Source: Elusimicrobiota bacterium | GTDB lineage: Bacteria > Elusimicrobiota > Elusimicrobia > FEN-1173 | DNA: 43,907 nucleotides | Assembly: GCA_016788905.1 (NCBI GenBank) | Contig: JAEURZ010000023.1 | Span: forward strand, 1 to 43,907 | Reading direction: 5' to 3' | Shown: one piece after another, positions 17,158 to 43,238 of the stretch | Numbering within the stretch: the first letter of the stretch is position 1 | How the letters are laid out: each line of letters opens with the position of its first letter | Notes under the pieces: generated by a model | The model's database searches: none | The model's input: the letters and a program-made list of their open reading frames with translations, nothing else | What the model was told of the DNA's origin: nothing | Program-made: the position numbers and the translations under genes

Positions 17158-17790
17158 ATGACCACACTCGCCCACACGGAACCCGCGCATTCCGACCACG
17201 CTGACATTGGCCAGATCGGGATTTGGTTATTTATTCTCTCCGAAATCATGCTCTTCGGGGGGTTTCTCTCGAGCTATTTTATGCTCCGATGGGGGAGTAC
17301 CGTTTGCACCATCGGCACACCCGCTTGGCCCGCAGAGGGGTACACCGGGGGGTTGGCGTTGGCCACAATCAACACTCTTATTTTGATCACCAGTTCTTAC
17401 ACCATGGTGCGGGCCGTTTTGGCTGTAGAAAAACGCGATGATCGGGCCTTTTCTCGGTTTATGGGAACCACCATTGGGTTGGGAATCCTGTTCCTTTGCG
17501 TTAAAGCCATTGAATACAGTCTCAAAATTCATCATGGGTTTTACCCGCGCAGTCCTTTTATGGAAGCGAACCCGGGGCTCAATATTTTCATTTCCTTTTA
17601 TTTCGCTCTCACGGGGTTTCACCTTTTGCATGTGATCATTGGAGTTTTATGGAACTTGTTTTTGAAACAATCGGCTAAGAAACGAAATTACTCTCCAGCG
17701 TTTGCTCGGAAAGTGGAATACGCCGGGCTTTACTGGCATTTCGTTGATGTGGTGTGGGTGTTTCTCTTTCCGTTGTTTTACCTCATATGA
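17158..17790 (+). CDS. ctaE: Heme-copper oxidase subunit III
   Basis: Subunit III of an aa3/caa3-type terminal oxidase in the inner membrane. The 210 residues carry five or six membrane helices; [22 protein letters not shown] (about 20-41) contains the family's conserved Glu (SEIMLF), and the C-terminal [20 protein letters not shown] is the subunit III signature. Lacking the first two helices of mitochondrial subunit III, it has the short bacterial form. It opens the operon, directly after a good promoter and with no Shine-Dalgarno. The stop overlaps the next start (ATGA). Confidence 0.93.
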
Positions 17791-18059
17791 CTGACGAAAG
17801 GTCTTCCACCATTCTTTTTGCGGGGTTGGTCTCATTCACCCTTTTAAGCGTTTTGGCGTCACGGCTCCATTTTGATCGGACGGGGGCGATCGTGACGGCT
17901 TTGGCCTTTGCCGTTGTTAAAGGGTTTTTGATTGGTTGGTATTTTATGCGCCTTAAATCCGCGGGGTGGATTGCACGAGGAGCGGTGTTCATTGGTATTT
18001 TGGCTGTGCTGATTCTTTCCATTGGGATTTTTCCGGATGTGGGGTTATTCAACCGATGA
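17787..18059 (+). CDS. ctaF: Heme-copper oxidase small subunit IV
   Basis: A 90-residue protein with three membrane helices, matching the prokaryotic subunit IV (COX4-like) of caa3-type oxidases; [19 protein letters not shown] is the typical second-helix signature. Start ATG 17787 overlaps the ctaE stop by 4 nt, and its own stop overlaps the next start by 4 nt. An upstream in-frame GTG inside ctaE (17754) is less likely. The subunit stabilises the assembled complex and has no redox centre. Confidence 0.85.
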
Positions 18060-18670
18060 AGCGGCCTCTCCTTTTCATTCTGCTGGGTCTTGGTGTCCTC
18101 GCCATTGTGTTTGGGGGTTTTGCTTGGAATTGGGTAGCGGCAAAGCGGGCCGGGCCAGAGGCGTTAGGGAATGTGCCTTCCTTTAGTCTGCCGGCCGCGA
18201 CGGCGGAGGGGGCGAGCGCCGTAAGTTTGGCCGATCTTCAGGGAAAAATCTGGGTTGCCAATTTCATTTTTACCCACTGCAGTGGGCCCTGCCCCCTCAT
18301 GACATCAAAAATGGCAAAACTTCAGGGCGTTCTGCCAGACTCCGTTCAACTGATCACGTTCACCGTTGACCCCGATAGAGATGATTTGGATGTCCTGTCC
18401 GAATACGCCCGTCAATTCGAAGCGGATCCGAAACGGTGGTTTTTTCTTCGGGCCGAAAAACCTGTCCTCTACAAACTCGTTTTTGAAGGGTTTAAGCTTC
18501 CCATGATGGAAGATCCTTCCGCCGATTCAGGGTTTCGGGTGACGCACAGCACGCGGTTCGTGTTGGTCGATGGGCAAGGGCGGATTCGCGGCTACTTTGA
18601 ATCCTCTGACCCAAGTTTAGAGAAAAAGATGACAAAAGCTGTTCAGGATTTAACGAAGGAAATGTCGTGA
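18056..18670 (+). CDS. SCO1/SenC-family copper chaperone
   Basis: A 204-residue membrane-anchored thioredoxin-fold protein that delivers copper to the CuA site of subunit II. One N-terminal membrane helix (about 5-26) is followed by the SCO domain with FTHCSGPCP giving C75 and C79 and the third Cu ligand H164 (RVTHSTRF); TFTVDPDRDD is also typical. Its position between subunits IV and II, overlapping both by 4 nt, fits co-production with its target. Confidence 0.93.
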   Translation: MKRPLLFILLGLGVLAIVFGGFAWNWVAAKRAGPEALGNVPSFSLPAATAEGASAVSLADLQGKIWVANFIFTHCSGPCPLMTSKMAKLQGVLPDSVQLITFTVDPDRDDLDVLSEYARQFEADPKRWFFLRAEKPVLYKLVFEGFKLPMMEDPSADSGFRVTHSTRFVLVDGQGRIRGYFESSDPSLEKKMTKAVQDLTKEMS

Positions 18671-19380
18671 AAATTACGCGGGGATTTTTTGTGATTATCG
18701 CCTTGTCGGCTATTTTCTCAGCCGCTCTTTTTTATTTGTTCCGGGCGTATCCCATGATGCCCCTCGCTGCAAGCGCTGAAGCCTTTCATGTGGATCATGC
18801 CTTCAATATTGTGCTTTGGCTGTCTATCCCCATCTACTCGCTGGTCATGGCCGCCTTGATTTATGCTTTATTTGTTTTTCGATCTAAGGAAAACCAGGAT
18901 GAGGGGGAAAAGTTTGCCGAGAGTCGTGGGCACTGGGTGGAGACACTTTGGATCGTTGCAAGTTTAGTGATTACCATTGGTTTAGCGGCCTTCGGATCAA
19001 TAGAACTTCGAAAGCTTCACCTTTCCCAAAAACAGGCCGATCTCGAAATCAACGTCAATGCCTCCCAATTTTCTTGGGAATTTTATTACCCTGTTCAAGC
19101 GCAATACTCCATTCGTCTGGTTTTGCCTGTGGGCAAAAAAGCCCGTCTCATTTTCAAATCCGCAGACGTTATTCATTCCTTCTGGGTCCCTGAATTTCGG
19201 CTCAAGCAAGATGTTTTGCCAGGGAAAGTGACCCAGATTGTTATTACCCCAACTCTTTTAGGCAGTTATGAATTACGCTGCGCTGAACTTTGCGGCCAAG
19301 ACCACACGGTGATGACCGCCATGGTCGACGTTGTTGATGAGCAGGAATTCCACAATCGTTTAGAGGGGGAAAGTTGGTGA
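18667..19380 (+). CDS. coxB: Cytochrome c oxidase subunit II (CuA)
   Basis: A 237-residue subunit II: two membrane helices (about 5-27 and 47-70, the mature protein anchored by a hairpin with a third hydrophobic stretch at 92-110) and a periplasmic cupredoxin domain. The CuA ligands are complete: H170 (DVIHSFWVPEF), C205, E207, C209, H213 and M216 (CAELCGQDHTVM). FSWEFYYP is the aromatic entry region for electrons from cytochrome c. No C-terminal heme c domain is present, so it is an aa3-like rather than a true caa3 subunit. GTG start overlaps the SCO stop by 4 nt. Confidence 0.94.
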   Translation: MKITRGFFVIIALSAIFSAALFYLFRAYPMMPLAASAEAFHVDHAFNIVLWLSIPIYSLVMAALIYALFVFRSKENQDEGEKFAESRGHWVETLWIVASLVITIGLAAFGSIELRKLHLSQKQADLEINVNASQFSWEFYYPVQAQYSIRLVLPVGKKARLIFKSADVIHSFWVPEFRLKQDVLPGKVTQIVITPTLLGSYELRCAELCGQDHTVMTAMVDVVDEQEFHNRLEGESW

Positions 19381-21134
19381 TACCTGGACTTTTGCGAGGA
19401 ATTGCGGCCGGAGTTATTTCTTATTTGGGGTTCAACTTCCTTCTCATTCGTTTCGTGTCCGCGGAAGCGGCAGCGACCCTATCCTACGTTGTTTCAATTC
19501 CCGTTTATCTTGCTATCGGTGGGGGGTGGGCGGCTTTTCGGAGCTGGTTGAACGAAAAGGAAGAACCTGAATGTCATGGTTTTTCCCGTTTCTTTAATTT
19601 CAACACCGATCACAAGGTTGTTGGAGTTCAATACCTCTTCGCCAGTTTTTTCCTTTTCCTCTTTGCGGGGGTGATGGCCCTGATTATGCGAACGGAGCTG
19701 GCCCATGAAGGGATGCAATTCCTTTCCACGAAAACCTACGCAACCGTGATGGGGTCCCATGGGATTGGAATGGTCTTGGTCGCTCTTACCGCCATTGTGG
19801 GGGGATTTGGAAACTATGTCGTTCCCTTACAGATCGGGGCTAAAGACATGGCTTTCCCACGATTAAACGCTTTAAGTTTCTGGCTTCTTCCCCCAGCGGT
19901 CATTATTTTAATGGCAAGCCTTTTTAATGGAGGATTTGATTTCGGATGGACAGCGTATGCGCCTCTCAGCACAAAAGGTCCTGTCGGGAAGCTGTTTTTC
20001 CTCTTGGCGTTCGCCACGTCAGGTTTTTCTTCCATTTTCGGAGGTGTCAACCTGCTGGTCACCATCATCAAAATGCGTGCGAAAGGGATGTCTTTTTTTA
20101 GAATTCCCGTGTTCGTCCATTCCATTGCCGCCACCGCTGTGGTCATTGTCATTGCGACTTCTGTTGTCGCAAGTTCTTTATTCATGGTTATTTTTGATCG
20201 TGTCCTTAATACCTCTTTTTTTGATCCTGCCCGAGGGGGGAGCGTTATCCTGTATCAACATCTTTTTTGGTTTTATTCCCACCCCGCGGTCTATATCATG
20301 ATTCTGCCGGCGTTTGGTCTCCTCCTGGAAGTTTTGCCTGTTTTTTCTCGCAAACCGCTCTTTGCCTATCCGCTCGCGGTTCTTTCTTTTTGGATTATTG
20401 TGTTCTTAAGTTTTGTTGTTTGGGCCCATCATATGTTCACCAGTGGCATGTGGGGATTATTAAATTTTCCCTTTCTCATCACGACGGAACTCATATCGAT
20501 CCCGACGGGGATCATGTTCTTGGCCGCGATAGGAACCCTCTGGAGGGGGAAAATAAGATTCACCACACCCTTGCTCTTTGCCGTGGGGGTGATCGCAAAT
20601 TTTTTAATAGGGGGGCTCACGGGTATCTTCTTGGCCGACGTACCGAGTGACGTTCACCTCCACGACACGCTCTTTGTCACCGCCCACTTCCATTTCACTA
20701 TTGTGGGCGGGACCATTTTTGCTTTATTTGCAGGCGTCTATTACTGGTTCCCTAAGATTTCAGGGCGCCTTTACAGTGAGACCCTCGGGCGTTGGCATTT
20801 TGCCCTATTCTTTTACGGATTTAATGCCACCTTTATCCCCATGTTTTGGACCGGAACCCGCGGATTGCGTCGACGCGTTGCTGATTTCCCACCGGAAATG
20901 GGCCCAATTCAAATGTGGATCAGTGTTTCTGCTTTTATTATTTTTATTGCGGTCGCCATTTTCCTGTATAATATTTTCCGTTCCCTTAGAAAAGGAGCCC
21001 CAGCGGCCTCTTCGAATCCGTGGAACGCCCAAACATTGGAATGGACGTTGTCTTCCCCTCCGCCCCCTCACAACTTCGAGACCCCCCCAGAAGTCCATTC
21101 GTCCCCTTACAATTTCGGGCGACCCCTTTTATAA
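19377..21134 (+). CDS. coxA: Heme-copper oxidase subunit I, A2-type
   Basis: Catalytic subunit (585 residues, about 14 membrane segments). Visible are the low-spin heme His (VMGSHGIGMV), the D-channel loop FGNYVVPLQIGAKDMAFPR, CuB ligand and crosslinked Tyr in FWFYSHPAVY (H302, Y306), the CuB pair in WAHHMFTSGM and the heme ligands in TAHFHFTIVGG. The D-channel glutamate that precedes VY in A1 enzymes is replaced by Ala304, while Y300-S301 is present: the YS signature of A2-type oxidases. An N-terminal extension of about 60 residues with two hydrophobic stretches precedes the usual start. GTG 19377 overlaps the coxB stop, with GAGGGGGA upstream. No heme A synthesis genes are in the window. 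Confidence 0.93.
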   Translation: MIPGLLRGIAAGVISYLGFNFLLIRFVSAEAAATLSYVVSIPVYLAIGGGWAAFRSWLNEKEEPECHGFSRFFNFNTDHKVVGVQYLFASFFLFLFAGVMALIMRTELAHEGMQFLSTKTYATVMGSHGIGMVLVALTAIVGGFGNYVVPLQIGAKDMAFPRLNALSFWLLPPAVIILMASLFNGGFDFGWTAYAPLSTKGPVGKLFFLLAFATSGFSSIFGGVNLLVTIIKMRAKGMSFFRIPVFVHSIAATAVVIVIATSVVASSLFMVIFDRVLNTSFFDPARGGSVILYQHLFWFYSHPAVYIMILPAFGLLLEVLPVFSRKPLFAYPLAVLSFWIIVFLSFVVWAHHMFTSGMWGLLNFPFLITTELISIPTGIMFLAAIGTLWRGKIRFTTPLLFAVGVIANFLIGGLTGIFLADVPSDVHLHDTLFVTAHFHFTIVGGTIFALFAGVYYWFPKISGRLYSETLGRWHFALFFYGFNATFIPMFWTGTRGLRRRVADFPPEMGPIQMWISVSAFIIFIAVAIFLYNIFRSLRKGAPAASSNPWNAQTLEWTLSSPPPPHNFETPPEVHSSPYNFGRPLL

Positions 21135-21382: not shown

Positions 21383-24300
21383 ATGAACGATTCTGCGTTG
21401 GACAATTCTCCCCAGCTAAAAGATTTCGGATTTCCGAAGAATTTTTGGTCTTCGGAGTCACTGGGAGATCTTTTCTCACGTTGTGTGGCGTTCACCCTTC
21501 CGGTGACTTACTTCTTAGTCAGTATTTCGTTTTACCTTCGAACCTACGACTCCGCCCAAATTAAGATAACGCTGACACAGTTGGGTGGCAGTATGGTCAT
21601 CCTTTTCTGGGCTCTTCAATTGATTTTTCAAAAGAGATTCCCTTTTAGTAAAAAAGATCTTCCCCTGGTGGCGCCCTTCCTTGCCATTCTTGTCAGTGGC
21701 GTCGTCTCCTATCTCCAATCGTCCTTCCAAGCCGGGAGTTTAGAGGAATTTTTGCGCCGTGTTTTTTATTCGTTTATGGCTCTGATCGTGATCGCTGAAT
21801 TCCGGGGAATGGATCGACAGCGGCGACTGATGCGGTGGTTGATCGCGGGGTTTGCGGTCACGGTTTTGTACGGGTTCATTCAATATTTTGATGGGCGGCT
21901 ATTCCCCCCAGGAATGACAAAAGCGGGCTTGGATCCTTTTATTTGGCGCCAGGCATTTTCCTTGCGGGTCTTTTCAAGTTTTGGAAACCCCAATTTCTAT
22001 GGTAATTTTCTTGTCATTATCACCCCCATCCTGATTGCCCTCTATTTCAGGGGAGGGGGAAAACCGTTTCGCCCCTTTCTCTTGATCGGTGTCCTGGTTC
22101 CTGTCGTTCTCCTTACCGACAAACTTTTCACCAACCAATTTGGAGGAATAACCGCTCAAAATCAATTTTGGGTGACGGGGGGGCTTTGGGCCTCGCTCCT
22201 TGTTGTTTTAGGTTTGATTTGGTGGAAAAGCCCCTCCGTTTCAGCCAGCGGGATGATGATCTTTATTGGAGCGACCTTCGTTAACCTCTACGCCACAGAA
22301 ACGAAGGGGGCCTGGGTTGGGTTTGTCGCCGCCATTGTTTTTTCCGCACTATTGGTGGGCCTGTTCTTAGTCGGGCGCAAGGCCCGTCGCTTGACGTGGA
22401 GTCTCATGGGAGTCTCGCTCCTGGTTGCCCTTGCGGGCTTCATGGCCGTTCGTCACTACGCGCTCAAACGTTCACAGTCGGTGGATTTTCGAGTGTTCAC
22501 ATGGATTTCCACTTGGAACATGATTCGAAGTCAACCTTGGTTAGGAACAGGGATCGGAACTTTTAAATGGGCCTACCCAGCCTATCGACGACCGGAAATT
22601 ATTTTATTAGAAGGCCGCTCGAACACGGAAACAGATCATGTGGAAGATGAATACTTGGAAGTTCTGTATGATGAAGGGATCGTCGGTTTTGGTATCTTCC
22701 TCTGGCTTATTCTGAGTGTGAGTGTTATGGGGATTCGCATGCTGCAACGGCTCACAGTGGAAGGACCACGCCCTCCTCCTGAACCCGCTTTTGATGATCG
22801 GGTCTATAAAGTGTTGGGTTACATGGGAGCCTGGTGGGCCGCCTTGGTCCATTGGTTAGTGGATGTCTCTGTGCGTTTTGTTTCCTCCGGTATTTTTTCT
22901 TTTTTTCTTCCAGCCCTTGTGATAAGTTTTGTGAGAAATGATCCCATGCCTGTTCATCAAGATTCGCCGAATCGATCCGATATTTGGATTCGATTGGGAA
23001 CAGCCTTTATTTGGATGTCCTTCTTTCTTATCCCTGACGATACACTTCGCCCTTTGATCCGTCCCTCCGGGGTTCTTTATTTTGGAGCCTGTGTCATTCT
23101 CTTCTCGGAAATCATGGAACGTCGCCTCGGCCCAAAATCCACGGGACTGTCGAGAATTCCCTTTCTTGTATCCTCGGGTTTGTGTGTGGTCGGGGAATTG
23201 ATGGAAATTCCAGCTCTTTTCCAATATGGTTTTAGCCCGGGACATTTGATTCGAATTTTCTCTGCGCTTATTTTTCTTTTTGTGTGGGTTTTGTTACGCC
23301 AGAGAGAAAGGGACACTTCCCAACCCATGGGCCCATCCCCCAACGGCGCCCGCATCTCTTTTTATCAATGGGTTTTGGCCGCAGGCGCATTGGGGGTATG
23401 GATCGTGGGAATTAATTTTTGGCGAGGCTATTTTCTAGCCGACGTGAGTCATAATGTTGCTATTTTTTTCTCGAAACAATCCATCTGGAACCGTTCCCCG
23501 GAATTTGAGGCTAAAGTGAACGCTTCCGGTTTTCCTCCGGATATGAAAAAAGAATACGAGCTCGTGGGGGGAGCTATTGAACATTACGAAAAAACGTTTC
23601 GCCTCCATCCTGGATTTCCGATGTCCGTGTATTTCATAGGAAATGTGCACAACGATTGGGGGTCCAATAGACTCGAAGCCTCCCGCCAAGCTCTCCAACG
23701 GGGGGAGAAAGATGCGGCCGAATCTTATCGCCTCGAAGCCATCCATCTTTGGGAAAAAGCCCTCAACGCTTACTCACGGGTGAAAGCCTTTGCCCCGAAT
23801 TATGTTCAAACCCATCATCAAGTGGGTTTAGTGTATTTAAAAATGGGGGAAATGGAGGCGGGACGGGGAGAAAAAGACATCGCGGATCAACACTTTAAGA
23901 AAGCTCTCGAAAGTTTTGAACTGTATCGAAAGATTGATCCGGTGTTTCCACCGAATTATTACCGTATGTCGTATGTCCATTTCATGCGTGGAGACATCGT
24001 CAAAGCGGAAGAATCCTATCTGGGAGCGCTCGTCTACAACTCCACCAATGTGGTCGGACGTGTGTACGTGGATAGAAATGTTGAGACCTACAGTAATTTA
24101 GGTCGGCTCTTTTATGTCCAACTCGTCAACCAACACCCCGATCCAACCCAGATGCCGAAGGATTCCCCTCTGTTTTTAAAAGCCGAAGGGTATTATCTCA
24201 AAGCTCTCGAAGAAGCCCAAAAGTCCGGACAGGAAGAAGATTTTGGAGTCGAGCCCGCCAAAGCGTTGGCGGTCCTGTACAGTCGTGTGGGACTCAATGA

Positions 24301-24397
24301 CAAAGCGCAGTCCCATTGGTTAAAACTTCGAAAACTGGCCCCAAATGATCCAGATGTGAAAAAAGTTTTTTCTCCAGTTCCAGCCTCTTCCCGGTAG
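21383..24397 (+). CDS. O-antigen ligase/polymerase-like membrane protein with C-terminal TPRs
   Basis: A 1004-residue protein. The first two thirds (about 35-680) has a dozen or more membrane helices; the Wzy_C/WaaL-type periplasmic loop includes SQPWLGTGIGTFKWAYPAYRR, then VEDEYLEVLYDEGIVGFGIF, the region that in ligases holds conserved Arg and His. Residues about 700-1000 are soluble with several TPR-like helical pairs (for instance HYEKTFRLHPGFP, ALNAYSRVKAFAPNYVQTHHQVGLVYLKMGE, ALESFELYRKIDPVFPPNYYRMSYV). Such ligases join or polymerise surface glycans; the TPR half probably binds partners in the periplasm. It overlaps the next, related gene by 1 nt (TAGTG). Substrate unknown; protein O-glycosylation is possible. 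Confidence 0.85.
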   Translation: MNDSALDNSPQLKDFGFPKNFWSSESLGDLFSRCVAFTLPVTYFLVSISFYLRTYDSAQIKITLTQLGGSMVILFWALQLIFQKRFPFSKKDLPLVAPFLAILVSGVVSYLQSSFQAGSLEEFLRRVFYSFMALIVIAEFRGMDRQRRLMRWLIAGFAVTVLYGFIQYFDGRLFPPGMTKAGLDPFIWRQAFSLRVFSSFGNPNFYGNFLVIITPILIALYFRGGGKPFRPFLLIGVLVPVVLLTDKLFTNQFGGITAQNQFWVTGGLWASLLVVLGLIWWKSPSVSASGMMIFIGATFVNLYATETKGAWVGFVAAIVFSALLVGLFLVGRKARRLTWSLMGVSLLVALAGFMAVRHYALKRSQSVDFRVFTWISTWNMIRSQPWLGTGIGTFKWAYPAYRRPEIILLEGRSNTETDHVEDEYLEVLYDEGIVGFGIFLWLILSVSVMGIRMLQRLTVEGPRPPPEPAFDDRVYKVLGYMGAWWAALVHWLVDVSVRFVSSGIFSFFLPALVISFVRNDPMPVHQDSPNRSDIWIRLGTAFIWMSFFLIPDDTLRPLIRPSGVLYFGACVILFSEIMERRLGPKSTGLSRIPFLVSSGLCVVGELMEIPALFQYGFSPGHLIRIFSALIFLFVWVLLRQRERDTSQPMGPSPNGARISFYQWVLAAGALGVWIVGINFWRGYFLADVSHNVAIFFSKQSIWNRSPEFEAKVNASGFPPDMKKEYELVGGAIEHYEKTFRLHPGFPMSVYFIGNVHNDWGSNRLEASRQALQRGEKDAAESYRLEAIHLWEKALNAYSRVKAFAPNYVQTHHQVGLVYLKMGEMEAGRGEKDIADQHFKKALESFELYRKIDPVFPPNYYRMSYVHFMRGDIVKAEESYLGALVYNSTNVVGRVYVDRNVETYSNLGRLFYVQLVNQHPDPTQMPKDSPLFLKAEGYYLKALEEAQKSGQEEDFGVEPAKALAVLYSRVGLNDKAQSHWLKLRKLAPNDPDVKKVFSPVPASSR

Positions 24398-26721
24398 TGT
24401 CCCGATCCGACCTTTTTTTTTATAAAACCCTTTTTCTTCTGGGTGCCGGTCTCCACACATTCGGTCCACTCTTTTTTTTAACCCAGACCACACAAAATCC
24501 GTACAGTATCCAAATTCTTATTGTCCAGTGTGGCGTATTGGCCCTATGGGCCCTTTTCGGGTTCTTTCTTTGGAACCGGCATTCCACTCTCCACCTCCCT
24601 AACTCAACGGTAAACATTCCATTATTGACGTTCGCTCTTTGGGCTTTGATGTCATGGGGGCTTTCTTTTTTTCAGCATGGTCTATTTTTTCGGTCGGGAA
24701 TATTTCATGAGGGATTGCGTGGATTCATTTTTCTTTGGGTCAATGGAATCGGTGTTTTTTTTCTTTCGTCCATGGTCCCCCCAGGGTCCCAGACCGCTCG
24801 AACGCTTCGTCGTTTAATGCTGTTCGTTGCCAGCCTTTCAGCGGTTTACGGGGTCTCCCAATATTTAGGGTTTGACCCTTTATGGGGCGCGGAGATCAAC
24901 CCCTTCGCCGGTCGCCCCGTATCGACCTACGGCAACCCCAATTTCCTCTCGACCGCGTTGGTTTTACTTCTTCCTCTCCTTCTGTATGAATACTATTCCG
25001 CACCCACACGAATAAAAACCTGGGGATGGGGAAGTTTGGGGTTGATTTATACGGCGGCACTCACGGCCACCATGACGCGATCGTCCTGGCTGGGCGCGGT
25101 GATGGGAATGGCTCTCTACCTTTATTTAGATCGAAACACCGTTCGTCGTTTTTGGGTCCGGACCGTGGTCTGGGGTGGGGGGGCAGGAATGATCACTCTT
25201 TTCTGGCCGGCCTCATCCCTTGGATCACCCCGTCCCCTGTCCCGATTGGGGGAACTGTGGACCGGGATCTCCGGAGCGCAGATTTACGGTTCGTGGCACC
25301 AACGATTACTCATTTGGCGATCCGCCTGGGACATGTGGACCGAACGTCCTATTGTCGGAAAAGGATGGGGATTGTTTGAACTGTTTTTTCCCTATTACCA
25401 GGGCCGGCTTTTTACCATTAAACCTTTCGATCTTTTCCGGACACACGCGAATAACGCCCACCAACTATTTCTTGAAATTGGGTCTCTCACTGGACTCATC
25501 GGGTTTGGCCTCTTTTTGTGGATCCTTCTGGTAACAATCTTAACCCATCGTCACTTCAAGAAACGGGAAGGCCCCCCCGCAAAACACTCCCTAGCGGCCG
25601 CGCTTTTGGCGGGGATGGGGGGCGTTCTCATTGATAACGCCTTGGGAAACGTTTCTCTGTTTTTTGCCATTCCGGCTTTCCTCTTTTTTTGGGTCTGGGG
25701 CCAATGGGCTGGGTTGGTGGGAGAAAAAACCATCATTGTTCCGCGCTCTTTAGTTCATCGACGTTTCATGTCTTTCGCCTTTCTTACTCTGAGCGTTCTG
25801 GGAATCGTTTTTCTGTCAAAAGGATTTGTTGCGGAAAAAACTTTTTTCAAAGGATTGAGATCTCAACAAACCCAGAGTCCTAACGGAAGCGAAAATTTAT
25901 TTCTCCGATCGCACAAAACACTTCCGTATTCTGTCCACACCACTTTTGAACTGGGAAATATTTATCTGCAAAAAATGGTCGAAGCCGAAAACCGGGGGTT
26001 TCGTGGGGAAATCAAGGAAAACGCGGAACGAGCCGTCTCGTTCTATGGGAAAGGACTTCAATCCAACCCAAGTTACGATGAAATATTTTTCTCCCGTTCG
26101 AAGGCCCTCCGTTATCTTGGGCGTTACGGGGAAGCCGAGCTGGACCTGAGAATGGCCCTCTTAATCAATCCCCTTCGAAAAGAAACCTATTTAGCGCTGG
26201 ACGAACTCCTGACTAAAAAGGGGAATACAAAAAAGGAGAGAATCGCGCTTTGGACCCAAGCGGTTGCTCATTTTCCAGATGATTTTAACGCGAGGTTTCA
26301 ATGGGCTCTAACCCTAGAGGAGGGGGGGCAAATGAGTGAAGCGCACAACGCCTATGAATGGTGTTTGGCCCGTGATCTGGATCATGAAAAAGTCTGGGCC
26401 AAATTAAAAGAAAGTGGGCTTCCCGTGTCCCCCCAACTCCTGAAAGGAAGGGAACTTCTTTTTTTAATTCGATCCGAGGCGCGGGAAAACCGTTGGGAAC
26501 GCGCCCATTCCCATGCGGAGGAGTTAATTGCTCTCATTCCCACATACACCCTAGCGCTCTTAATTGCCGCTGACACAGCGGCACAAGCCGAAAACGATTC
26601 AACCGCCATACAACGCTATCAGGAATTCCTAAAGCGTAGTCCCCAACATCCCGAAGCGCTCTCAAATCTTAAAAAAGTAATGGATCGATCTCCCGTTGAC
26701 TCCCCTGCCGCCCTACAGTAG
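24397..26721 (+). CDS. Second O-antigen ligase-like membrane protein with TPRs
   Basis: A 774-residue homologue-like partner of the preceding gene with the same layout: about twelve membrane helices (to about residue 470), then a TPR tail. Ligase-type motifs are ERPIVGKGWGLFELFFPYY and THANNAHQLFLEIGSLTGLIGFGLFL, with the H-x4-E/L-G pattern of Wzy_C proteins. The tail (about 495-765) has TPR units such as AVSFYGKGLQSNPSYDEIFF and AELDLRMALLINPLRKETY. GTG start overlaps the previous stop by one base, so the two are coupled. Two adjacent ligases could act on different acceptors or work as a pair. Its stop is 9 nt before the kinase start, and that kinase's promoter lies inside its 3' end. Confidence 0.85.
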   Translation: MSRSDLFFYKTLFLLGAGLHTFGPLFFLTQTTQNPYSIQILIVQCGVLALWALFGFFLWNRHSTLHLPNSTVNIPLLTFALWALMSWGLSFFQHGLFFRSGIFHEGLRGFIFLWVNGIGVFFLSSMVPPGSQTARTLRRLMLFVASLSAVYGVSQYLGFDPLWGAEINPFAGRPVSTYGNPNFLSTALVLLLPLLLYEYYSAPTRIKTWGWGSLGLIYTAALTATMTRSSWLGAVMGMALYLYLDRNTVRRFWVRTVVWGGGAGMITLFWPASSLGSPRPLSRLGELWTGISGAQIYGSWHQRLLIWRSAWDMWTERPIVGKGWGLFELFFPYYQGRLFTIKPFDLFRTHANNAHQLFLEIGSLTGLIGFGLFLWILLVTILTHRHFKKREGPPAKHSLAAALLAGMGGVLIDNALGNVSLFFAIPAFLFFWVWGQWAGLVGEKTIIVPRSLVHRRFMSFAFLTLSVLGIVFLSKGFVAEKTFFKGLRSQQTQSPNGSENLFLRSHKTLPYSVHTTFELGNIYLQKMVEAENRGFRGEIKENAERAVSFYGKGLQSNPSYDEIFFSRSKALRYLGRYGEAELDLRMALLINPLRKETYLALDELLTKKGNTKKERIALWTQAVAHFPDDFNARFQWALTLEEGGQMSEAHNAYEWCLARDLDHEKVWAKLKESGLPVSPQLLKGRELLFLIRSEARENRWERAHSHAEELIALIPTYTLALLIAADTAAQAENDSTAIQRYQEFLKRSPQHPEALSNLKKVMDRSPVDSPAALQ

Positions 26722-36738: not shown

Positions 36739-37497
36739 ATGACACGACGCCCTCTGATGGCAGGAAATTGGAAGATGTTCAAAACGATTGGCGAAGGTGT
36801 CGATCTGGTTAAAAAACTCTCTGCGTTGGTCCCATCCCATACCGATCGGGATGTTCTCGTCTGCCCGCCCTTCACAAGTTTGGCCGCTGTGGCCCAAGCC
36901 GCTAAAGGCTCCCCTATTTCGGTCGGGGCTCAGAACATGAATGATAATTTACAAGGGGCTTTCACGGGGGAAGTGGCTCCCGGAATGATTAAAGACGCCG
37001 GGGCATCCTTTGTCCTCGTGGGTCACTCGGAACGGCGTCAGATCTATAAGGAAACCGATATCCTCATTAATAAGAAAGCCAGGCTCGCCTTAGAGCAGGG
37101 GCTGACCCCCATTGTGTGTGTAGGAGAAACCCTTGAGGAACGAGAAAGTGGAAAAACATTTTCGGTTGTGGAACGCCATGTAACAGAAGGCCTAAAGGGG
37201 TTTTCGGCGGCCCAGGCCCCATCCCTTGTTATCGCCTATGAACCGGTCTGGGCCATTGGCACGGGGAAAACGGCAACCCCAGACCAGGCCCAAGAAGTGC
37301 ATGCGTTTATCCGCCGAAAATTAGAAGTCCTCTTTGGCACCGCCGCGGCTCAGGTCCGCGTCCTTTACGGGGGATCCGTTAAACCGGACAACATTGATAC
37401 CCTCATGGCCCAACCGGACATTGACGGAGGTCTTGTAGGTGGGGCGAGCCTTAAAGCTGAAGATTTCGCTCGTATCGTGAATTTCAAAAAAATCTAA
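36739..37497 (+). CDS. tpiA: Triosephosphate isomerase
   Basis: Interconverts dihydroxyacetone phosphate and glyceraldehyde 3-phosphate. The 252-residue barrel is complete: MAGNWKMFKT with catalytic K12, FVLVGHSERRQ with H96, VIAYEPVWAIGTGK with catalytic E168 and the mobile loop, and LYGGSVKPDN plus GGLVGGASLK as phosphate-binding loops. A strong AAGGAG site precedes ATG. It has its own promoter, separating glycolytic supply from the upstream pathway genes, and is followed after 14 nt by rpiB. Confidence 0.96.
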   Translation: MTRRPLMAGNWKMFKTIGEGVDLVKKLSALVPSHTDRDVLVCPPFTSLAAVAQAAKGSPISVGAQNMNDNLQGAFTGEVAPGMIKDAGASFVLVGHSERRQIYKETDILINKKARLALEQGLTPIVCVGETLEERESGKTFSVVERHVTEGLKGFSAAQAPSLVIAYEPVWAIGTGKTATPDQAQEVHAFIRRKLEVLFGTAAAQVRVLYGGSVKPDNIDTLMAQPDIDGGLVGGASLKAEDFARIVNFKKI

Positions 37498-37511: not shown

Positions 37512-37961
37512 ATGAAACTTTGGGTAGGATCCGATCACGGTGGTTTCAAATCAAAAGAAAAACTGGTGGGGGTTCTTCGTCAAGAAGGGCACACGGTGAC
37601 GGATATAGGAACTTTTAGCGAAGAATCCATGGATTATCCTGACATCGCCAAACTGGTCTGCCTGGCCGTTACGGGAAAGAAGGCGGACCGAGGAATCCTG
37701 CTTTGCGGGACAGGAATTGGGATGTCCATTGCCGCCAATAAAATGAAAGGGATTCGCGCCGCGGTTGTCTGGAACAAGCCAACAGCCTCTTTGGCGGCTA
37801 GACATAATAAGGCCAACGTGCTTTGTTTAGGGGGGCGGGTTCTAAAACCGTCAACCCTGATCGAATTGGCACGTGTGTGGATTCGATCCCCTTTTGAGCG
37901 GGGGCGGCACGTTCGTCGAATTTCTAAAATCACGGCGTTGGAGACGAAAAAAAGAGGATGA
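37512..37961 (+). CDS. rpiB: Ribose-5-phosphate isomerase B
   Basis: Interconverts ribose 5-phosphate and ribulose 5-phosphate. WVGSDHGGFKSKE (D8, H9), GTFSEESMDYPDIA and GILLCGTGIGMSIAANK with catalytic C65 identify RpiB/LacAB family; R-rich AAVVWNKPTASLAARHNKANVLCLGGR completes the active site. 149 residues is the usual length. It completes the interconversion of pentose phosphates in this cluster, where no ribulose-phosphate 3-epimerase gene is visible. Confidence 0.94.
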   Translation: MKLWVGSDHGGFKSKEKLVGVLRQEGHTVTDIGTFSEESMDYPDIAKLVCLAVTGKKADRGILLCGTGIGMSIAANKMKGIRAAVVWNKPTASLAARHNKANVLCLGGRVLKPSTLIELARVWIRSPFERGRHVRRISKITALETKKRG

Positions 37962-38117: not shown

Positions 38118-39200
38118 GTGGCCGTAGATATCAATAAACTTTTTCAAACCATGCTCCGCAGTGGAATTTCGGACATCCATTTTAAAGCGGGGACTCCGCC
38201 CATGGTCCGAATTCATGGCCGCCTCATGTCTTCGGGTTTTAACAAAATGGGTCCCGAACATATCCAAGAATTGGCGAATCTTCTTATGAACGAAAATCAA
38301 CGGGCCATCTTTGAGCGGGAGAATGAGTTGGACATGTCCTACAGCGTTCCTGATTTGTCCAGGTTCCGGGTTAACGTTTACCGCCAAAAAGGGAGCGTGG
38401 CCCTTTCCCTCCGTGTCGTTCCTCTTCAAGTTAAATCCTTTGAAGAATTAAATCTTCCCGCTGAAACCATGAGAAAACTCTGCCACAACACACGGGGAAT
38501 GCTCCTTGTGGCTGGCATTACGGGGGCGGGGAAAACCACCACTTTAAATTCCATGGTGGACTACATTAACAAGAACTACGCCTACAACATGATCATGATC
38601 GAAGACCCTATCGAATATTATCACACCAATGATAAATCCTCCATCGCCCAACGGGAAGTGGGCCAAGACACACCCTCCTTTGGCTCCGCTGTTAAACACC
38701 TCCTTCGTCAGGACCCGGACGTGGTTGTTTTGGGTGAAATGCGTGACGCGGAGTCGATCCAAGCCGGGATTACCGCGGCGGAAACAGGTCATTTGGTCCT
38801 TGGCACCATCCACACAATGGACGCCTCGCAGACCATGGGGCGCCTGCTCGAATCGTATCACCCCGCTGAACAATCGGGAGCCAAAGCGCGCATCGCCAAC
38901 GTTCTCAAGGGAATCATCGCGCAACGACTGCTGGAGTCGGCGGACGGCCGAGAGAGGGTTCCCGCCACAGAAACCCTTGTGGTCACTTCGCTCATCCGGA
39001 AACTTCTCCTGGAAGATAAATCCAACGAGGTCAATCGAGCCATTGAACAAGGCCAATATTACGGCATGCACTCCTTTGATCAGGATATTATTCGTTTGTT
39101 TAATGAACAAAAGATAACGAAGGAAGAAGCTCTCGACGCCTCCACCAATCCGGACGATTTGCTGGTCAAAATGAACACACTCCGGATTGGCGACGCGTAG
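38118..39200 (+). CDS. pilT: Type IV pilus retraction ATPase PilT
   Basis: Hexameric motor that disassembles type IV pili, driving twitching motility. The 360 residues include the N-terminal PAS-like domain (SGISDIHFKAGTPPMVRIHG), Walker A GITGAGKT (133-140), the Asp box (IEDPIEYYH), Walker B DPDVVVLGEMRD (199-210), the His box TGHLVLGTIHT (223-233) and a C-terminal domain ending with LIRKLLLEDK...GMHSFDQDI. AGGAGG precedes the GTG start. No pilB, pilC or pilin genes are in the window. It is followed after 8 nt by two unusual genes that are probably co-transcribed with it. Confidence 0.95.
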   Translation: MAVDINKLFQTMLRSGISDIHFKAGTPPMVRIHGRLMSSGFNKMGPEHIQELANLLMNENQRAIFERENELDMSYSVPDLSRFRVNVYRQKGSVALSLRVVPLQVKSFEELNLPAETMRKLCHNTRGMLLVAGITGAGKTTTLNSMVDYINKNYAYNMIMIEDPIEYYHTNDKSSIAQREVGQDTPSFGSAVKHLLRQDPDVVVLGEMRDAESIQAGITAAETGHLVLGTIHTMDASQTMGRLLESYHPAEQSGAKARIANVLKGIIAQRLLESADGRERVPATETLVVTSLIRKLLLEDKSNEVNRAIEQGQYYGMHSFDQDIIRLFNEQKITKEEALDASTNPDDLLVKMNTLRIGDA

Positions 39201-39208
39201 GTTTTTCA

Positions 39209-40780
39209 ATGGCTATCCATCGATGGGAAATGCTCCTTTCCGCTCAAGCCGATAGTTTTCTTTTAAAGATTCAAGGGGATCGGACCGATGTCGACAGTAT
39301 CGTTCGCGCTCATCCCCAAACCTGCCAAAACGTCCAGGAAATTTCGGATGACGTTTTTCAATGGGCCATATTTGTCGTGGACGCGCCCCTTCCCGAAAAA
39401 CTTGCCATTCAAAACCAGGTGATGTCCTTGACCAAAGATACCTCAGGGATTGGCCCTTCGGGGGAATTAATGGGCATTCTGGATGGGCTAAGCGGTGCCC
39501 TTCAGGATCTGACGAATTTAACAGAAGACGAGCAAACCTTCGTCATGAATAAAATGGCCCGTATGGGTAACCCTGTAACCCCAACCCCCATCCCCCCGGC
39601 TAAACCCGACACCACTCCTCCCACGCTTTCGGAACAAACGCCCCCAACTCAAAAAAACACCGCCCCGGCCACCACACCTCTTCCCCGTGTGACAATTCCA
39701 GGACAAGTTTCAATAGCCCCGCCTTCTCTTTCAAAATCGTTTCCTGGACCGACGGTCGGGACGCCACCGAATTCAAAGGCGCCCACCCCTTTACCCTCCA
39801 CGGGCCCACTGCCCAACATTCTTCGCCCCGTCCAACCACCGAAACCGGGAAACGTTCCTGCGGGAAACACACCTCTCCCCCATCCCATGGGAGGGAATAC
39901 CCCTAGATTACCAAACCCAATGCCACAAATTTCTCAGCCAAAAATTTCGCTGCCTCCATCCGTTTCACTAAAACGGAATGAGCCATCGACTCCTCCTCAC
40001 GTCCCCTCACCGCCCGCTCAAGGGGTTCCACCTGGACCTAAAGATAAAAATGCACCTGTAGGCCCTCAGGGAAGTGCAACGCCCATTCCAATCCCGATGA
40101 CAGGAGAAGGTTTTCAAGCCGCGAGTTCTCCACCCATCCCACCGAAGGCGAGCCAGGGGCCAGTGACACCCCCTTCTTCGTTACTGGATAAGACAGTTTC
40201 TTTTACAGAGGGAAGGGAGGCTCTCCAAAAACCGACAACAGATGCCCCCTTGCCTCCTGCGGCCGTGGAACCGTTGGCGTTCACTCCACCTCCGGCAATC
40301 CCAACGGAAACGGCGCCTCTGGCCGAAGAACCGATAAAACCGCCACCCTCCTCATCTGTTTCGATTCCAGCGACAGCCATGAAACAGGAGGAACCATCCA
40401 CGTTACGTGTTTCAATTTTTTATTCGACTGGGAGAGAAACGGCGCGAGATCGGTTCATGACCACTTTGACCGAGATGGCTCAAAAGAAATCCAGGAAACC
40501 GACCAATTTCGTTATCAACGCTTCGATCGCGACAACCATCACGCTGGACAATTCCGCTGAATGGATATGGAAAGCAAAAACAAGTGGTTCCGATATCTTT
40601 TTTGTTGTTCTTCCATCTGGATTGGGAAGCGATCTCATGGATCCGTTGGTTGGGGAGGCCCAGGCCGCTGGACTTCGGTGTTTCCTTATTCCCGAAGGGG
40701 AAATCAATTCAAAACTTCTCTACATGGACTTGATGGTCGAACTCATGATGTTTAAGCGGAGAATCCGTCCCGCCTCATGA
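39209..40780 (+). CDS. Pro-rich protein with C-terminal alpha/beta domain shared with its neighbour
   Basis: Unrecognised 523-residue protein without signal peptide or membrane segment. Three parts: an N-terminal globular domain (about 1-115), a Pro/Thr/Ser-rich, probably disordered linker (about 118-395), and a C-terminal domain (about 399-520) beginning LRVSIFYSTGRETARDRF, followed by DIFFVVLPSGLG and LRCFLIPEGEINSKLLYMDL. The strand-helix alternation suggests a Rossmann-like fold. The same layout and similar start (IPVVFFYPAGRAKELL) and end occur in the following gene. It starts 8 nt after pilT and overlaps the next gene by 4 nt. No start-site signal beyond TTTTTCA upstream is seen. A role with PilT is inferred from position. 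Confidence 0.8.
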   Translation: MAIHRWEMLLSAQADSFLLKIQGDRTDVDSIVRAHPQTCQNVQEISDDVFQWAIFVVDAPLPEKLAIQNQVMSLTKDTSGIGPSGELMGILDGLSGALQDLTNLTEDEQTFVMNKMARMGNPVTPTPIPPAKPDTTPPTLSEQTPPTQKNTAPATTPLPRVTIPGQVSIAPPSLSKSFPGPTVGTPPNSKAPTPLPSTGPLPNILRPVQPPKPGNVPAGNTPLPHPMGGNTPRLPNPMPQISQPKISLPPSVSLKRNEPSTPPHVPSPPAQGVPPGPKDKNAPVGPQGSATPIPIPMTGEGFQAASSPPIPPKASQGPVTPPSSLLDKTVSFTEGREALQKPTTDAPLPPAAVEPLAFTPPPAIPTETAPLAEEPIKPPPSSSVSIPATAMKQEEPSTLRVSIFYSTGRETARDRFMTTLTEMAQKKSRKPTNFVINASIATTITLDNSAEWIWKAKTSGSDIFFVVLPSGLGSDLMDPLVGEAQAAGLRCFLIPEGEINSKLLYMDLMVELMMFKRRIRPAS

Positions 40781-42606
40781 CGAATCCCATCTCAACAGAT
40801 GCTGCCCTTGGGGCAGGCGATCCCCGCCTTGTACCGCTCTACACCTTCGAAGAGTTTGTCGTTGGAACCCATAACCGGTTTCCCCACGCGGCGTCCCTTG
40901 CTGTCTCCGAAAACTTGGGAAAAGCCTACAACCCTCTCTTTCTCTACGGCCCCGTTGGTATAGGGAAAACACACCTCATGCAGTCCGTGGGGCACCGGGT
41001 ACTTCAACGAGACCCAAAAACCCGTGTGTTGTATGTCACCGCGCAACAGTTCATGACGGAGGTCATTGAACTGCTGCAGGCCGGGCGACTTCAAACATTA
41101 AGAGAACGGTACCGAGCCCTCGATCTGTTGTTGGTCGATGATATTCAATTCCTCGCCACCTCCGAAGCGACCCAGGAGGAATTTTTTCACACGTTTAACG
41201 ATTTACACGCCAGCGGAAAACAAATCATCATGACGTCGGACCGCCCTCCCAAAATGCTGACCACTTTGGAAGATCGCTTGCGAAGCCGTTTTGAATGGGG
41301 CTTGATCGCTGACATCAAGTTTACCAACCTCGAAACTCGCGTGGCCATCCTGAAGAAAAAGGAAAGCCGAATGACGGGACTTCATTTGGCGGACGACATT
41401 CGTCTTTACATCGCCAGCCGACTCAAATCCAACATTCGAGAGTTGGAAGGGTTTCTGCGGCGTATCCAAGCGTATTCACAACTTTACACGGAAGAAATCA
41501 CTCTCTCCCTAGTGAAAGACATTTTGAAAGAGCTTCTTCCGCCAGAAGAATGGGTGGCGGAGGGGGAATCGAGCGAAAAAACGTCGACGGGTTTCCAAGA
41601 GACAGAAGTCAGTCTGGAGGAAAAAAAAATTCTTTCCGAGATGGAAGGGTTTGACCTTCAGCCCTCTCATTTCGATACTCCCCAGCCCACCCCCCCCCGG
41701 CCCGCTATTGTCTCTCCTCCGGCCAAAACAGTGGTGGAAACAAAAACACATGACCCAATTTCTGATTTTCCAGATAATCAAATGGAAAGAATAAACACCC
41801 AATCCGTTCCATCCCCTGTAGAACGTAAGGAAGATTTTTCCTCCCCCAAGGAAATAACGAAAACGGTTTCAAAAGAAAAACCTGAACCGGAGGACGCACG
41901 CCCTTCGCCCGCGGAACCCGCGGTTCCTCAGCCTTCCGCAAAACCAATTAAAGTTGATATTCCTGAATCTTCAGGATCGACAAGACCGATACCGCTTCCT
42001 AAAATGACCCCTTTTCTTCCAACGTCTTCCCCCCCAACTAATCCTAGGATGAGGGAAGGGACTCCCTCCTTGCCTCCTACGCCTTCTCCTATTCTCCCAC
42101 TATCCCCTAGTGGAAAGAGCGCACCGCAACCCCCATTACCGATACCTTCTGTTTTACCTCAGTCGCTTCCACCAAAAAGTGCCCCAGTTTCCATTCCGTT
42201 ACCGGTGAACTCCGGTCAAATTCCCGTCGTGTTTTTCTACCCAGCGGGGCGAGCGAAAGAACTTCTTCAAATGAAAAAGAAATTCGAAGATATTATTAAC
42301 AAACATAAACTCAAATTTGTTCTCCACCCAGCCCTTGAAGTCGAATACTCATCCCATACCGGGTTGGGCACTGAAACCTTTCTGGAAAAATGCCAACAGG
42401 CAGGCGTATCTATTGGGGTTGTCCTCGGGCCATCCCCGGACACGGACCTTCCAGAAGGCATTTTCTTTAGCCGCCTCCAGGAAGCTTTTGACCAAGCCAA
42501 ACTTTCCCTTCAAATGGTTCCTTGGGACGAACTTTCAAAAGATTATCGCTTTTTAAATCTGGCCCTCGACATCACTCTCATTCGTATTAAGCAAAAAAAA
42601 ACCTAG
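40777..42606 (+). CDS. DnaA-type AAA+ ATPase lacking the DNA-binding domain, Pro-rich linker and novel C-terminal domain
   Basis: A 609-residue cytoplasmic protein. Residues about 20-260 are a clear DnaA domain III: YTFEEFVVGTHNRFPHAASL (22-41), Walker A GPVGIGKT (58-65), Walker B LLLVDDIQFLA (117-127), EEFFHTFNDLHASGKQIIMT, LEDRLRSRFEWGL with the arginine-finger region (R167-R171), and sensor 2 in SNIRELEG (R221). DnaA domains I/II are missing before it, and domain IV (the DnaA-box helix-turn-helix) does not follow. Instead there is a Pro/Ser-rich linker (about 260-480) and a C-terminal alpha/beta domain (482-609) resembling that of the preceding gene. ATG overlaps that gene's stop. It is therefore not the replication initiator; likely a polymerising or partner-loading ATPase. 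Hda-like proteins also lack domain IV but are much shorter. Confidence 0.88.
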   Translation: MTNPISTDAALGAGDPRLVPLYTFEEFVVGTHNRFPHAASLAVSENLGKAYNPLFLYGPVGIGKTHLMQSVGHRVLQRDPKTRVLYVTAQQFMTEVIELLQAGRLQTLRERYRALDLLLVDDIQFLATSEATQEEFFHTFNDLHASGKQIIMTSDRPPKMLTTLEDRLRSRFEWGLIADIKFTNLETRVAILKKKESRMTGLHLADDIRLYIASRLKSNIRELEGFLRRIQAYSQLYTEEITLSLVKDILKELLPPEEWVAEGESSEKTSTGFQETEVSLEEKKILSEMEGFDLQPSHFDTPQPTPPRPAIVSPPAKTVVETKTHDPISDFPDNQMERINTQSVPSPVERKEDFSSPKEITKTVSKEKPEPEDARPSPAEPAVPQPSAKPIKVDIPESSGSTRPIPLPKMTPFLPTSSPPTNPRMREGTPSLPPTPSPILPLSPSGKSAPQPPLPIPSVLPQSLPPKSAPVSIPLPVNSGQIPVVFFYPAGRAKELLQMKKKFEDIINKHKLKFVLHPALEVEYSSHTGLGTETFLEKCQQAGVSIGVVLGPSPDTDLPEGIFFSRLQEAFDQAKLSLQMVPWDELSKDYRFLNLALDITLIRIKQKKT

Positions 42607-42670: not shown

Positions 42671-42747
42671 GGTGCGGTACCCAAGCGGCCTAAGGGGGAA
42701 GTCTGCAAAACTTCTATTCGCCGGTTCAAATCCGGCCCGCACCTCCA
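42671..42747 (+). tRNA. tRNA-Cys (GCA anticodon)
   Basis: Acceptor GGTGCGG (42671-42677) pairs with CCGCACC (42737-42743); anticodon stem GAAGT/ACTTC with loop CTGCAAA (anticodon GCA); T-loop TTCAAAT. Discriminator T, the usual identity base for tRNA-Cys; CCA is encoded (42745-42747). Five nt later comes the queF start. Confidence 0.95.
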
Positions 42748-42752
42748 ATTGA

Positions 42753-43157
42753 ATGAAAAAGCCATCCGGCGGTTACACAGGAAGTCACGCTCGATCCGGA
42801 ATCCAAGACCCGCTCCCGGTCATCGAGCGATGGGAGAATCAGTTCCCTGGATACACCATCGAATTGGTGTTTCCAGAATTCACGTCGGTTTGTCCCAAAA
42901 CGGGGTTACCCGATTTCGGGACAGTTTCGATCCGATATCAACCCCAGCGTTGGTGCCTGGAGACAAAGTCGCTCAAACTGTTCTTGAACTCGTTTCGTAA
43001 TCGCGGTATATTCACTGAGAATGTTGTTAACCGCGTTCTTCAGTCTGTCGTAAAAGATGCTCGCCCTGTTTGGGCAGAAGTGAAGGGAGTCTTTGCCTCC
43101 CGGGGAGGAATCGAAGCCATCATATCGGCCCGATTCGGAAAAGTACCCCAACCTTAA
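42753..43157 (+). CDS. queF: NADPH-dependent 7-cyano-7-deazaguanine reductase (QueF)
   Basis: Reduces preQ0 to preQ1 in queuosine biosynthesis, a modification of GUN-anticodon tRNAs. The 134-residue protein is the single-domain form: FPEFTSVCPKTGLPDFG gives catalytic C47 and D54, ETKSLKLF (70-77) is the nucleobase-binding motif (usually ESKS), and FASRGGIEA lies near the C terminus. The first 20 residues are poorly conserved. No Shine-Dalgarno precedes the ATG, which lies 5 nt after the CCA end of tRNA-Cys; the mRNA probably begins there after tRNA processing. Neither flanking tRNA (Cys GCA, Val GAC) is a queuosine substrate. Confidence 0.94.
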   Translation: MKKPSGGYTGSHARSGIQDPLPVIERWENQFPGYTIELVFPEFTSVCPKTGLPDFGTVSIRYQPQRWCLETKSLKLFLNSFRNRGIFTENVVNRVLQSVVKDARPVWAEVKGVFASRGGIEAIISARFGKVPQP

Positions 43158-43161
43158 TTTT

Positions 43162-43238
43162 GCTCGGTTAGCTCAGTTGGTTAGAGTACCTCCTTGACAT
43201 GGAGGGGGTCACAGGTTCGAGTCCTGTACCGAGCACCA
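43162..43238 (+). tRNA. tRNA-Val (GAC anticodon)
   Basis: Acceptor GCTCGGT (43162-43168) with ACCGAGC, anticodon stem CCTCC/GGAGG with loop TTGACAT (anticodon GAC), T-arm ACAGG-TTCGAGT-CCTGT, discriminator A and encoded CCA. It starts 5 nt after the queF stop, so tRNA-Cys, queF and tRNA-Val form one transcription unit. Confidence 0.95.

Follow-up and report, generated by a model that had tools for sequence, protein, structure and literature searches.

A DnaA paralogue without domain IV, encoded beside a dedicated pilT gene

Introduction

The window analysed here, the 43,907 nucleotides of contig JAEURZ010000023.1 from an Elusimicrobiota bacterium (assembly GCA_016788905.1), encodes a second DnaA. 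This protein, which we call DnaA2, retains the AAA+ core of the replication initiator, lacks domain IV and ends in a domain that is related, by fold and profile searches, to the MID domain of Argonaute. Its gene follows those for a dedicated PilT-family ATPase and for a companion protein, X, and in most relatives it precedes the gene of a sensor histidine kinase. We propose tentatively, with a probability of about 0.45, that DnaA2 forms a DNA-free, ATP-switched, DnaA-like oligomer that, together with X and the kinase, controls this PilT.

DnaA is among the most conserved of bacterial proteins and has few known paralogues outside replication control. If nearly a whole phylum carries a second one, can the DnaA polymer be used as a cytoplasmic switch? 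Should DnaA2 prove to be a DNA-free polymer that places or gates PilT, it would to our knowledge be the first instance of a DnaA filament put to use outside replication. Taken singly, the DnaA core, the MID-type fold, PilT and the sensor kinase are all of known kinds, and it is the family and the combination that appear to be undescribed in the open-access literature. There we found no PilT partner with a DnaA core and nothing relevant on a link between DnaA and pili or on a DnaA paralogue of this kind (subscription papers and preprints lay outside the search), in keeping with the original prediction, which had called the coupling apparently undescribed.

A DnaA core without domain IV

The gene and the parts of its product are as follows.

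40777–42606, + strand: dnaA2, a DnaA-core AAA+ ATPase without domain IV, 609 residues
40828–41544, + strand: DnaA domain III (AAA+ and lid), residues 18–256; phmmer match to Bacillus subtilis DnaA (8btg) over residues 18–257, E = 3.6e-84
40948–40971, + strand: Walker A, GPVGIGKT, residues 58–65; K64 invariant in 51 of 51 DnaA2 cores
41128–41142, + strand: Walker B, LLVDD, residues 118–122; D121 invariant
41161–41163, + strand: Ser129, which aligns with B. subtilis K222, an essential contact to single-stranded DNA (ssDNA) (PMC6669920)
41287–41289, + strand: Arg171, arginine finger and filament-interface residue (B. subtilis R264); Arg throughout the window's subgroup
41317–41319, + strand: Lys181, invariant signature residue of DnaA2, by residue alignment
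41437–41439, + strand: Arg221, sensor 2 (B. subtilis R313), by residue alignment
41545–42219, + strand: Pro/Ser-rich linker, residues 257–481, by composition
42217–42603, + strand: C-terminal MID-like alpha/beta domain, residues 481–609, from AlphaFold2 (AF2), Foldseek, the PADLOC PprPIWI and pAgo profiles and hhalign

How much of DnaA remains in this protein? The Pfam family Bac_DnaA matches residues 21–178 (E = 2.5e-65), the lid extends to about residue 256, and the protein has Walker A and B, sensor 1, the arginine finger (R171) and sensor 2 (R221). The core is thus intact, as first predicted, and the accompanying claim that domain IV is missing holds as well. Neither Bac_DnaA_C nor DnaA_N was among the Pfam matches at E ≤ 1. 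A hidden Markov model (HMM) of domain IV built from canonical relatives matched neither DnaA2 (--max, E ≤ 100) nor its homologues, and detected the canonical DnaA of the same genome at 5e-45. That canonical dnaA, of 462 residues, is encoded separately in the genome (2.5 Mb, 99.9% complete). Against the DnaA model TIGR00362 the window protein scores 335, slightly under the cut-off of 343.9.

Two trivial origins were considered. A domain IV concealed in the C-terminal part, where its helix-turn-helix was looked for and not found, is ruled out by Pfam, by the domain-IV HMM and by the AF2 fold. A frameshift or chimera of canonical dnaA is likewise ruled out; the architecture recurs in more than 20 families, and its cores form a separate group.

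DnaA2 and DnaA (TIGR00362/Bac_DnaA) share a domain III that is ~51–58% identical, with Walker A and B, the sensors and the filament interface. DnaA2 differs in lacking domains I and IV, in the replacement of K222, in the invariant K181 and in the addition of the linker, the MID-like domain and the pilT locus.

The filament interface and the contacts to DNA

In B. subtilis DnaA, the ssDNA-binding residues I190 and K222 are essential, as are eight residues of the AAA+ filament interface, R202, R206, F218, H231, R264, L269, G317 and R321 (PMC6669920). We compared these positions in 51 DnaA2 cores, 24 from the window's subgroup and 27 from a diverged one, with those of 100 canonical DnaA proteins. 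The window's subgroup keeps all eight interface residues, and the window protein also has the I190 equivalent. Across the 24 cores of its subgroup the eight interface equivalents are 83–100% conserved and the sensor-2 equivalent of R313 is 100% conserved; because Arg at the finger and at sensor 2 served to define the subgroup, these two are conserved by construction, and the other seven interface positions are not.

The K222 position behaves differently. It is Lys in 97% of the canonical proteins and in none of the 24, where it is Ser (79%), Ala (12%) or otherwise Val or Gly. Conversely, the equivalent of Lys181 is Lys in 51 of 51 DnaA2 cores, as against 10% of canonical DnaA, which mostly has Gln there. 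Both known grips on DNA, domain IV and the K222 lysine, are lost from the window's subgroup while the polymer interface is retained; the diverged subgroup retains chiefly nucleotide binding. The DnaA-like filament envisaged in the original prediction is therefore plausible for the window's subgroup, on the strength of its eight interface residues, and implausible for the diverged half, where most of those residues have disappeared. The pattern of a kept filament interface and a lost K222 gives predictions for single residues that purified proteins can test directly.

Might DnaA2 instead be a regulator of DnaA itself? Hda, the regulatory inactivator of DnaA, is also a DnaA paralogue that lacks domain IV and coexists with DnaA. 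In such a role DnaA2 would co-assemble with canonical DnaA, control DnaA-ATP and make replication responsive to the condition of the envelope or of the pili. The arginine finger and filament interface retained in the window's subgroup would make hetero-assembly possible, and the NCBIfam Hda model (TIGR03420) does match at 116.1 bits, short however of its curated cut-off of 194.8. Hda is an AAA+ core alone, of ~230 residues, unlike DnaA2 with its extra domains and pilus locus. The arginine finger and sensor 2, which the Hda mechanism needs, are gone in half of the family; the conserved partners at the locus are pilT and the kinase gene, not replication genes; and the genomes of one lineage, f15, manage without dnaA2. 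We consider such a role decidedly improbable.

A MID-like domain at the C-terminus

What, then, lies beyond the DnaA core? The linker (21% Pro and 13% Ser over residues 257–481) and the alpha/beta domain that follows it are both as predicted. In the AF2 model the domain is compact, with the topology b-a-b-a-b-a-b-a, a predicted local distance difference test score (pLDDT) of 94.4 and a predicted template modelling score (pTM) of 0.89, and it is conserved as the C-terminus of full-length homologues throughout the phylum. No family of Pfam or NCBIfam matches it.

The top Foldseek matches in the PDB were Argonaute MID domains, led by 3lud (E = 3.3e-5, probability 1.00, template modelling score (TM) 0.63); the MID of MIWI gives a TM of 0.65–0.71, and lumazine synthase and a PTS IIB rank lower. 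A library of viral structures gave nothing below 1e-3. A profile search of the PDB returned weak matches to the Ago2 MID (E ~0.1, not significant alone). The PADLOC models PprPIWI and pAgo match up to 9 of 57 members of the C-domain family (best E 5.9e-5; the match of the window protein lies at positions 337–437 of 666), and PADLOC holds defence proteins only, so that its matches are supportive, not unbiased. When the C-domain family was aligned by hhalign with the MID part of six genuine Argonautes from prokaryotes, the probability was 81% across the whole domain, as against 0.1% for RpiB, an unrelated Rossmann-like family used as a control. The alignment pairs residues 587–599 of the window protein (SKDYRFLNLALDI) with SEEYAMDNIALGI of an Argonaute. 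Fold and profile searches together indicate that the C-domain is related to Argonaute MID, which would mean that domains of the MID type are not confined to Argonaute proteins.

The two share a four-stranded Rossmann-like fold and a profile alignment over the full length. They differ in that DnaA2 lacks the lysines of the 5′-phosphate pocket, has no PIWI, PAZ or N domain of the Argonaute kind, and is fused to a DnaA core. The window protein has Phe-Gln-Gln-Ile where the pocket has Tyr-Lys-Gln-Lys; across DnaA2 the lysine positions hold Gln, Ser, Thr or Arg and Ile, Val, Leu or a gap, and the pocket Gln is retained in the window's subgroup only. Because these lysines are absent, guide binding in the manner of Argonaute is unlikely. 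A nucleic-acid-guided protein, whose MID-like domain would hold the 5′ end of RNA or DNA while the AAA+ core acted on the target, has the MID relationship by fold and profile in its favour. With two pocket lysines replaced and no Piwi match from Pfam in the window protein, we regard it as the least likely of the rival explanations, and a very poor prospect. Pfam Piwi found no Argonautes in one other phylum; in another, the PADLOC pAgo profile found six.

The companion protein X

The gene immediately upstream encodes X, whose parts are listed here.

39209–40780, + strand: X, 523 residues, comprising an N-domain, a conserved amphipathic helix, a Pro-rich linker and a MID-like C-domain
39209–39448, + strand: N-domain of X, ~80 residues, b-b-a-b-b-a, homologous to the N-terminus of most DnaA2; AF2 pLDDT 82.5
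39467–39559, + strand: amphipathic helix motif of X, residues ~87–117, beginning LMGILDGLSGALQDLT, consensus LxxILxDLxxILxxL; it recurs in X of many families
40403–40759, + strand: MID-like C-domain of X, match to the A1 profile, E = 1.9e-26

Its stop codon overlaps the dnaA2 start by four bases (ATGA, 40777–40780), and neither Pfam nor NCBIfam matches the protein. Iterated HMM searches showed that the C-terminal ~120 residues of X are a paralogous copy of the DnaA2 C-domain. The C-domain of the original prediction is real but, given this second copy, not peculiar to DnaA2. The same searches found the N-domain to be common to X and most DnaA2 homologues, and absent from the window DnaA2 and its closest relatives (families f1 and f2); a fold search with it gave no confident match (best E 8.8e-3). 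The general architecture is likely N-domain, DnaA core, linker and C-domain, and X the same without the ATPase.

Variants of this arrangement occur. Loci L118, L119, L175 and L176 encode two X proteins in tandem; in the first three, both carry the N-domain, which is joined by the amphipathic helix in just one of them, and the other resembles a DnaA2 without its ATPase; L176 has no match to the helix motif. The DnaA2 proteins of family f11 (L135–L142) are 933–1624 residues long, with a linker of ~460–1160 residues between N-domain and core that is highly variable between close genera.

The locus and its dedicated PilT

Three further genes precede X.

36739–37497, + strand: tpiA, triose-phosphate isomerase, a conserved upstream neighbour
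37512–37961, + strand: rpiB, ribose-5-phosphate isomerase B, a conserved upstream neighbour by synteny; Pfam LacAB_rpiB, 1.7e-53
38118–39200, + strand: a dedicated pilT paralogue, encoding a retraction ATPase of the PilT/PilU family; TIGR01420, 409 bits against a cut-off of 319

The conserved order is tpiA, rpiB, pilT, X, dnaA2, sensor kinase. In 17 of the 19 families that could be tested, dnaA2 has tpiA, rpiB or both upstream; for pilT the figure is 12 of 20, which bears out the predicted coupling of a DnaA core to pilT. Gene junctions frequently overlap by 1–4 bases, and the kinase gene is often translationally coupled to dnaA2. None of the homologues lies at an origin-type dnaA locus. The PilTs of 28 such operons form one clade (Shimodaira–Hasegawa-like approximate likelihood ratio test (SH-aLRT) 99–100), separate from the further PilT paralogues that these genomes encode, and the PilTs sampled from f15 all fall outside it. 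The PilT encoded near DnaA2 belongs to the PilT/PilU retraction ATPases, a group known to have accessory regulators. The linkage to pil genes across lineages is genuine, and the gene order suggests a role at the pilus.

In the window, tRNA-Cys, queF (QueF-II) and tRNA-Val (42671–43238) occupy the position that the kinase gene holds in relatives, which suggests that tRNA genes were the site of a rearrangement in this lineage.

In 17 of the 24 families that allow the comparison, dnaA2 is followed by the gene of a sensor histidine kinase, GAF-HisKA-HATPase where scanned. This share exceeds that of pilT, and the metabolic genes tpiA, rpiB and deoC persist equally. DnaA2 might accordingly be an AAA+ protein that acts in signalling with the linked kinase, unrelated to pili, with pilT a mere passenger. 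Such a passenger would hardly be expected to form a separate, vertically kept paralogue clade, nor would it be separated from dnaA2 by a gene, X, whose product has domains in common with DnaA2; we think this explanation unlikely.

The locus runs on into comM in families f3, f8, f9, f10, f11 and f14, and in f9 and f11 also into dprA and topA. In f11 the order is tpiA, deoC, dnaA2, two lipoprotein-like genes, comM, dprA, topA. At L132, L134, L150, L151 and L135–L142, comM-dprA-topA, in some cases with xerC, joins the pilT/dnaA2 locus to genes of natural transformation.

Could DnaA2 be a competence factor, acting with type IV pili in the ComM/DprA pathway of transformation? PilT powers DNA uptake in known systems, the continuation into comM recurs in those six families, and in f11 dnaA2 is packed into the comM-dprA run in the absence of pilT. 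On the other side, dprA-topA neighbourhoods are common among bacteria, the comM link is missing from the window's subgroup, and the residues that contact ssDNA are lost or replaced. This too we judge to be improbable.

Distribution and ancestry

Of 150 genomes sampled from the phylum, probably Elusimicrobiota, 94 matched the C-domain profile. Outside f15, dnaA2 is present in 94 of 98 genomes; in f15 it was found in 0 of 52. With its matches in the home phylum as the positive control, the same profile found nothing in a mixed set of other phyla (0 of 24), in the phylum of an Omnitrophota locus (0 of 117) or in that of an Acidobacteriota locus (0 of 199). The only named record found with the same architecture is an Elusimicrobiota metagenome-assembled genome (L098). 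Plasmid records yielded partial matches to the DnaA core only, none spanning 80% of the query.

In a tree of the cores, whose root is not fixed and in which the diverged half sits on long branches, the sequences divide into two groups, DnaA2 and all canonical DnaA (SH-aLRT 100). These sequence comparisons fit an old duplication followed by vertical descent within the phylum. A recent lateral gain is not supported, given the single group in the tree and the lack of matches in the other phyla sampled.

A possible mechanism

How might these parts work together? DnaA2 would be an ancient paralogue of DnaA, passed down the phylum and removed from replication. It probably assembles, in an ATP-dependent manner and without DNA, into a DnaA-like oligomer. 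The flexible Pro-rich linkers and MID-like C-domains of DnaA2 and X would serve as docking modules, recruiting the oligomer, X (by way of its conserved helix) and the GAF-type sensor histidine kinase to the dedicated PilT. The nucleotide state of the oligomer, or a signal from the kinase, could then switch or place pilus retraction. A fuller version, in which the initiator ATPase has become a phylum-specific control, a DNA-free, ATP-switched polymer gating or placing a dedicated PilT through docking modules descended from Argonaute and under kinase input, seems to us rather doubtful.

Several facts weigh against an oligomer that controls PilT. The chief among them are f11 and the diverged subgroup, which one simple mechanism does not accommodate. 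In f11, dnaA2 has neither pilT nor a kinase gene nearby, and none of the PilTs sampled from that family is of the operon type. Walker A and B survive in the 27 diverged members, but the arginine finger, sensor 2 and most interface residues are largely gone, and a single mechanism may not serve for the whole family. The window has no kinase gene next to dnaA2, and elsewhere in the genome there are only general kinase homologues. Lastly, gene order is association, not action.

Other features of the window

The remainder of the window holds several unrelated features. At 1225–2765 a gene with an AbiEi-type antitoxin domain is followed by an overlapping nucleotidyltransferase gene (NTP_transf_8), likely a type IV toxin–antitoxin pair. 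On the minus strand, 10685–17035 is an open reading frame of 2116 residues with no Pfam match at 1e-5, adjoining an MMPL-family transporter (8305–10632). Two consecutive Wzy_C (O-antigen ligase) proteins, each with C-terminal TPR repeats, are encoded at 21383–26721. A haem-copper oxidase cluster (COX3, SCO1, COX2 and COX1) occupies 17158–21134; the phylum is best known from anaerobic gut species, and this is apparently an aerobic member.

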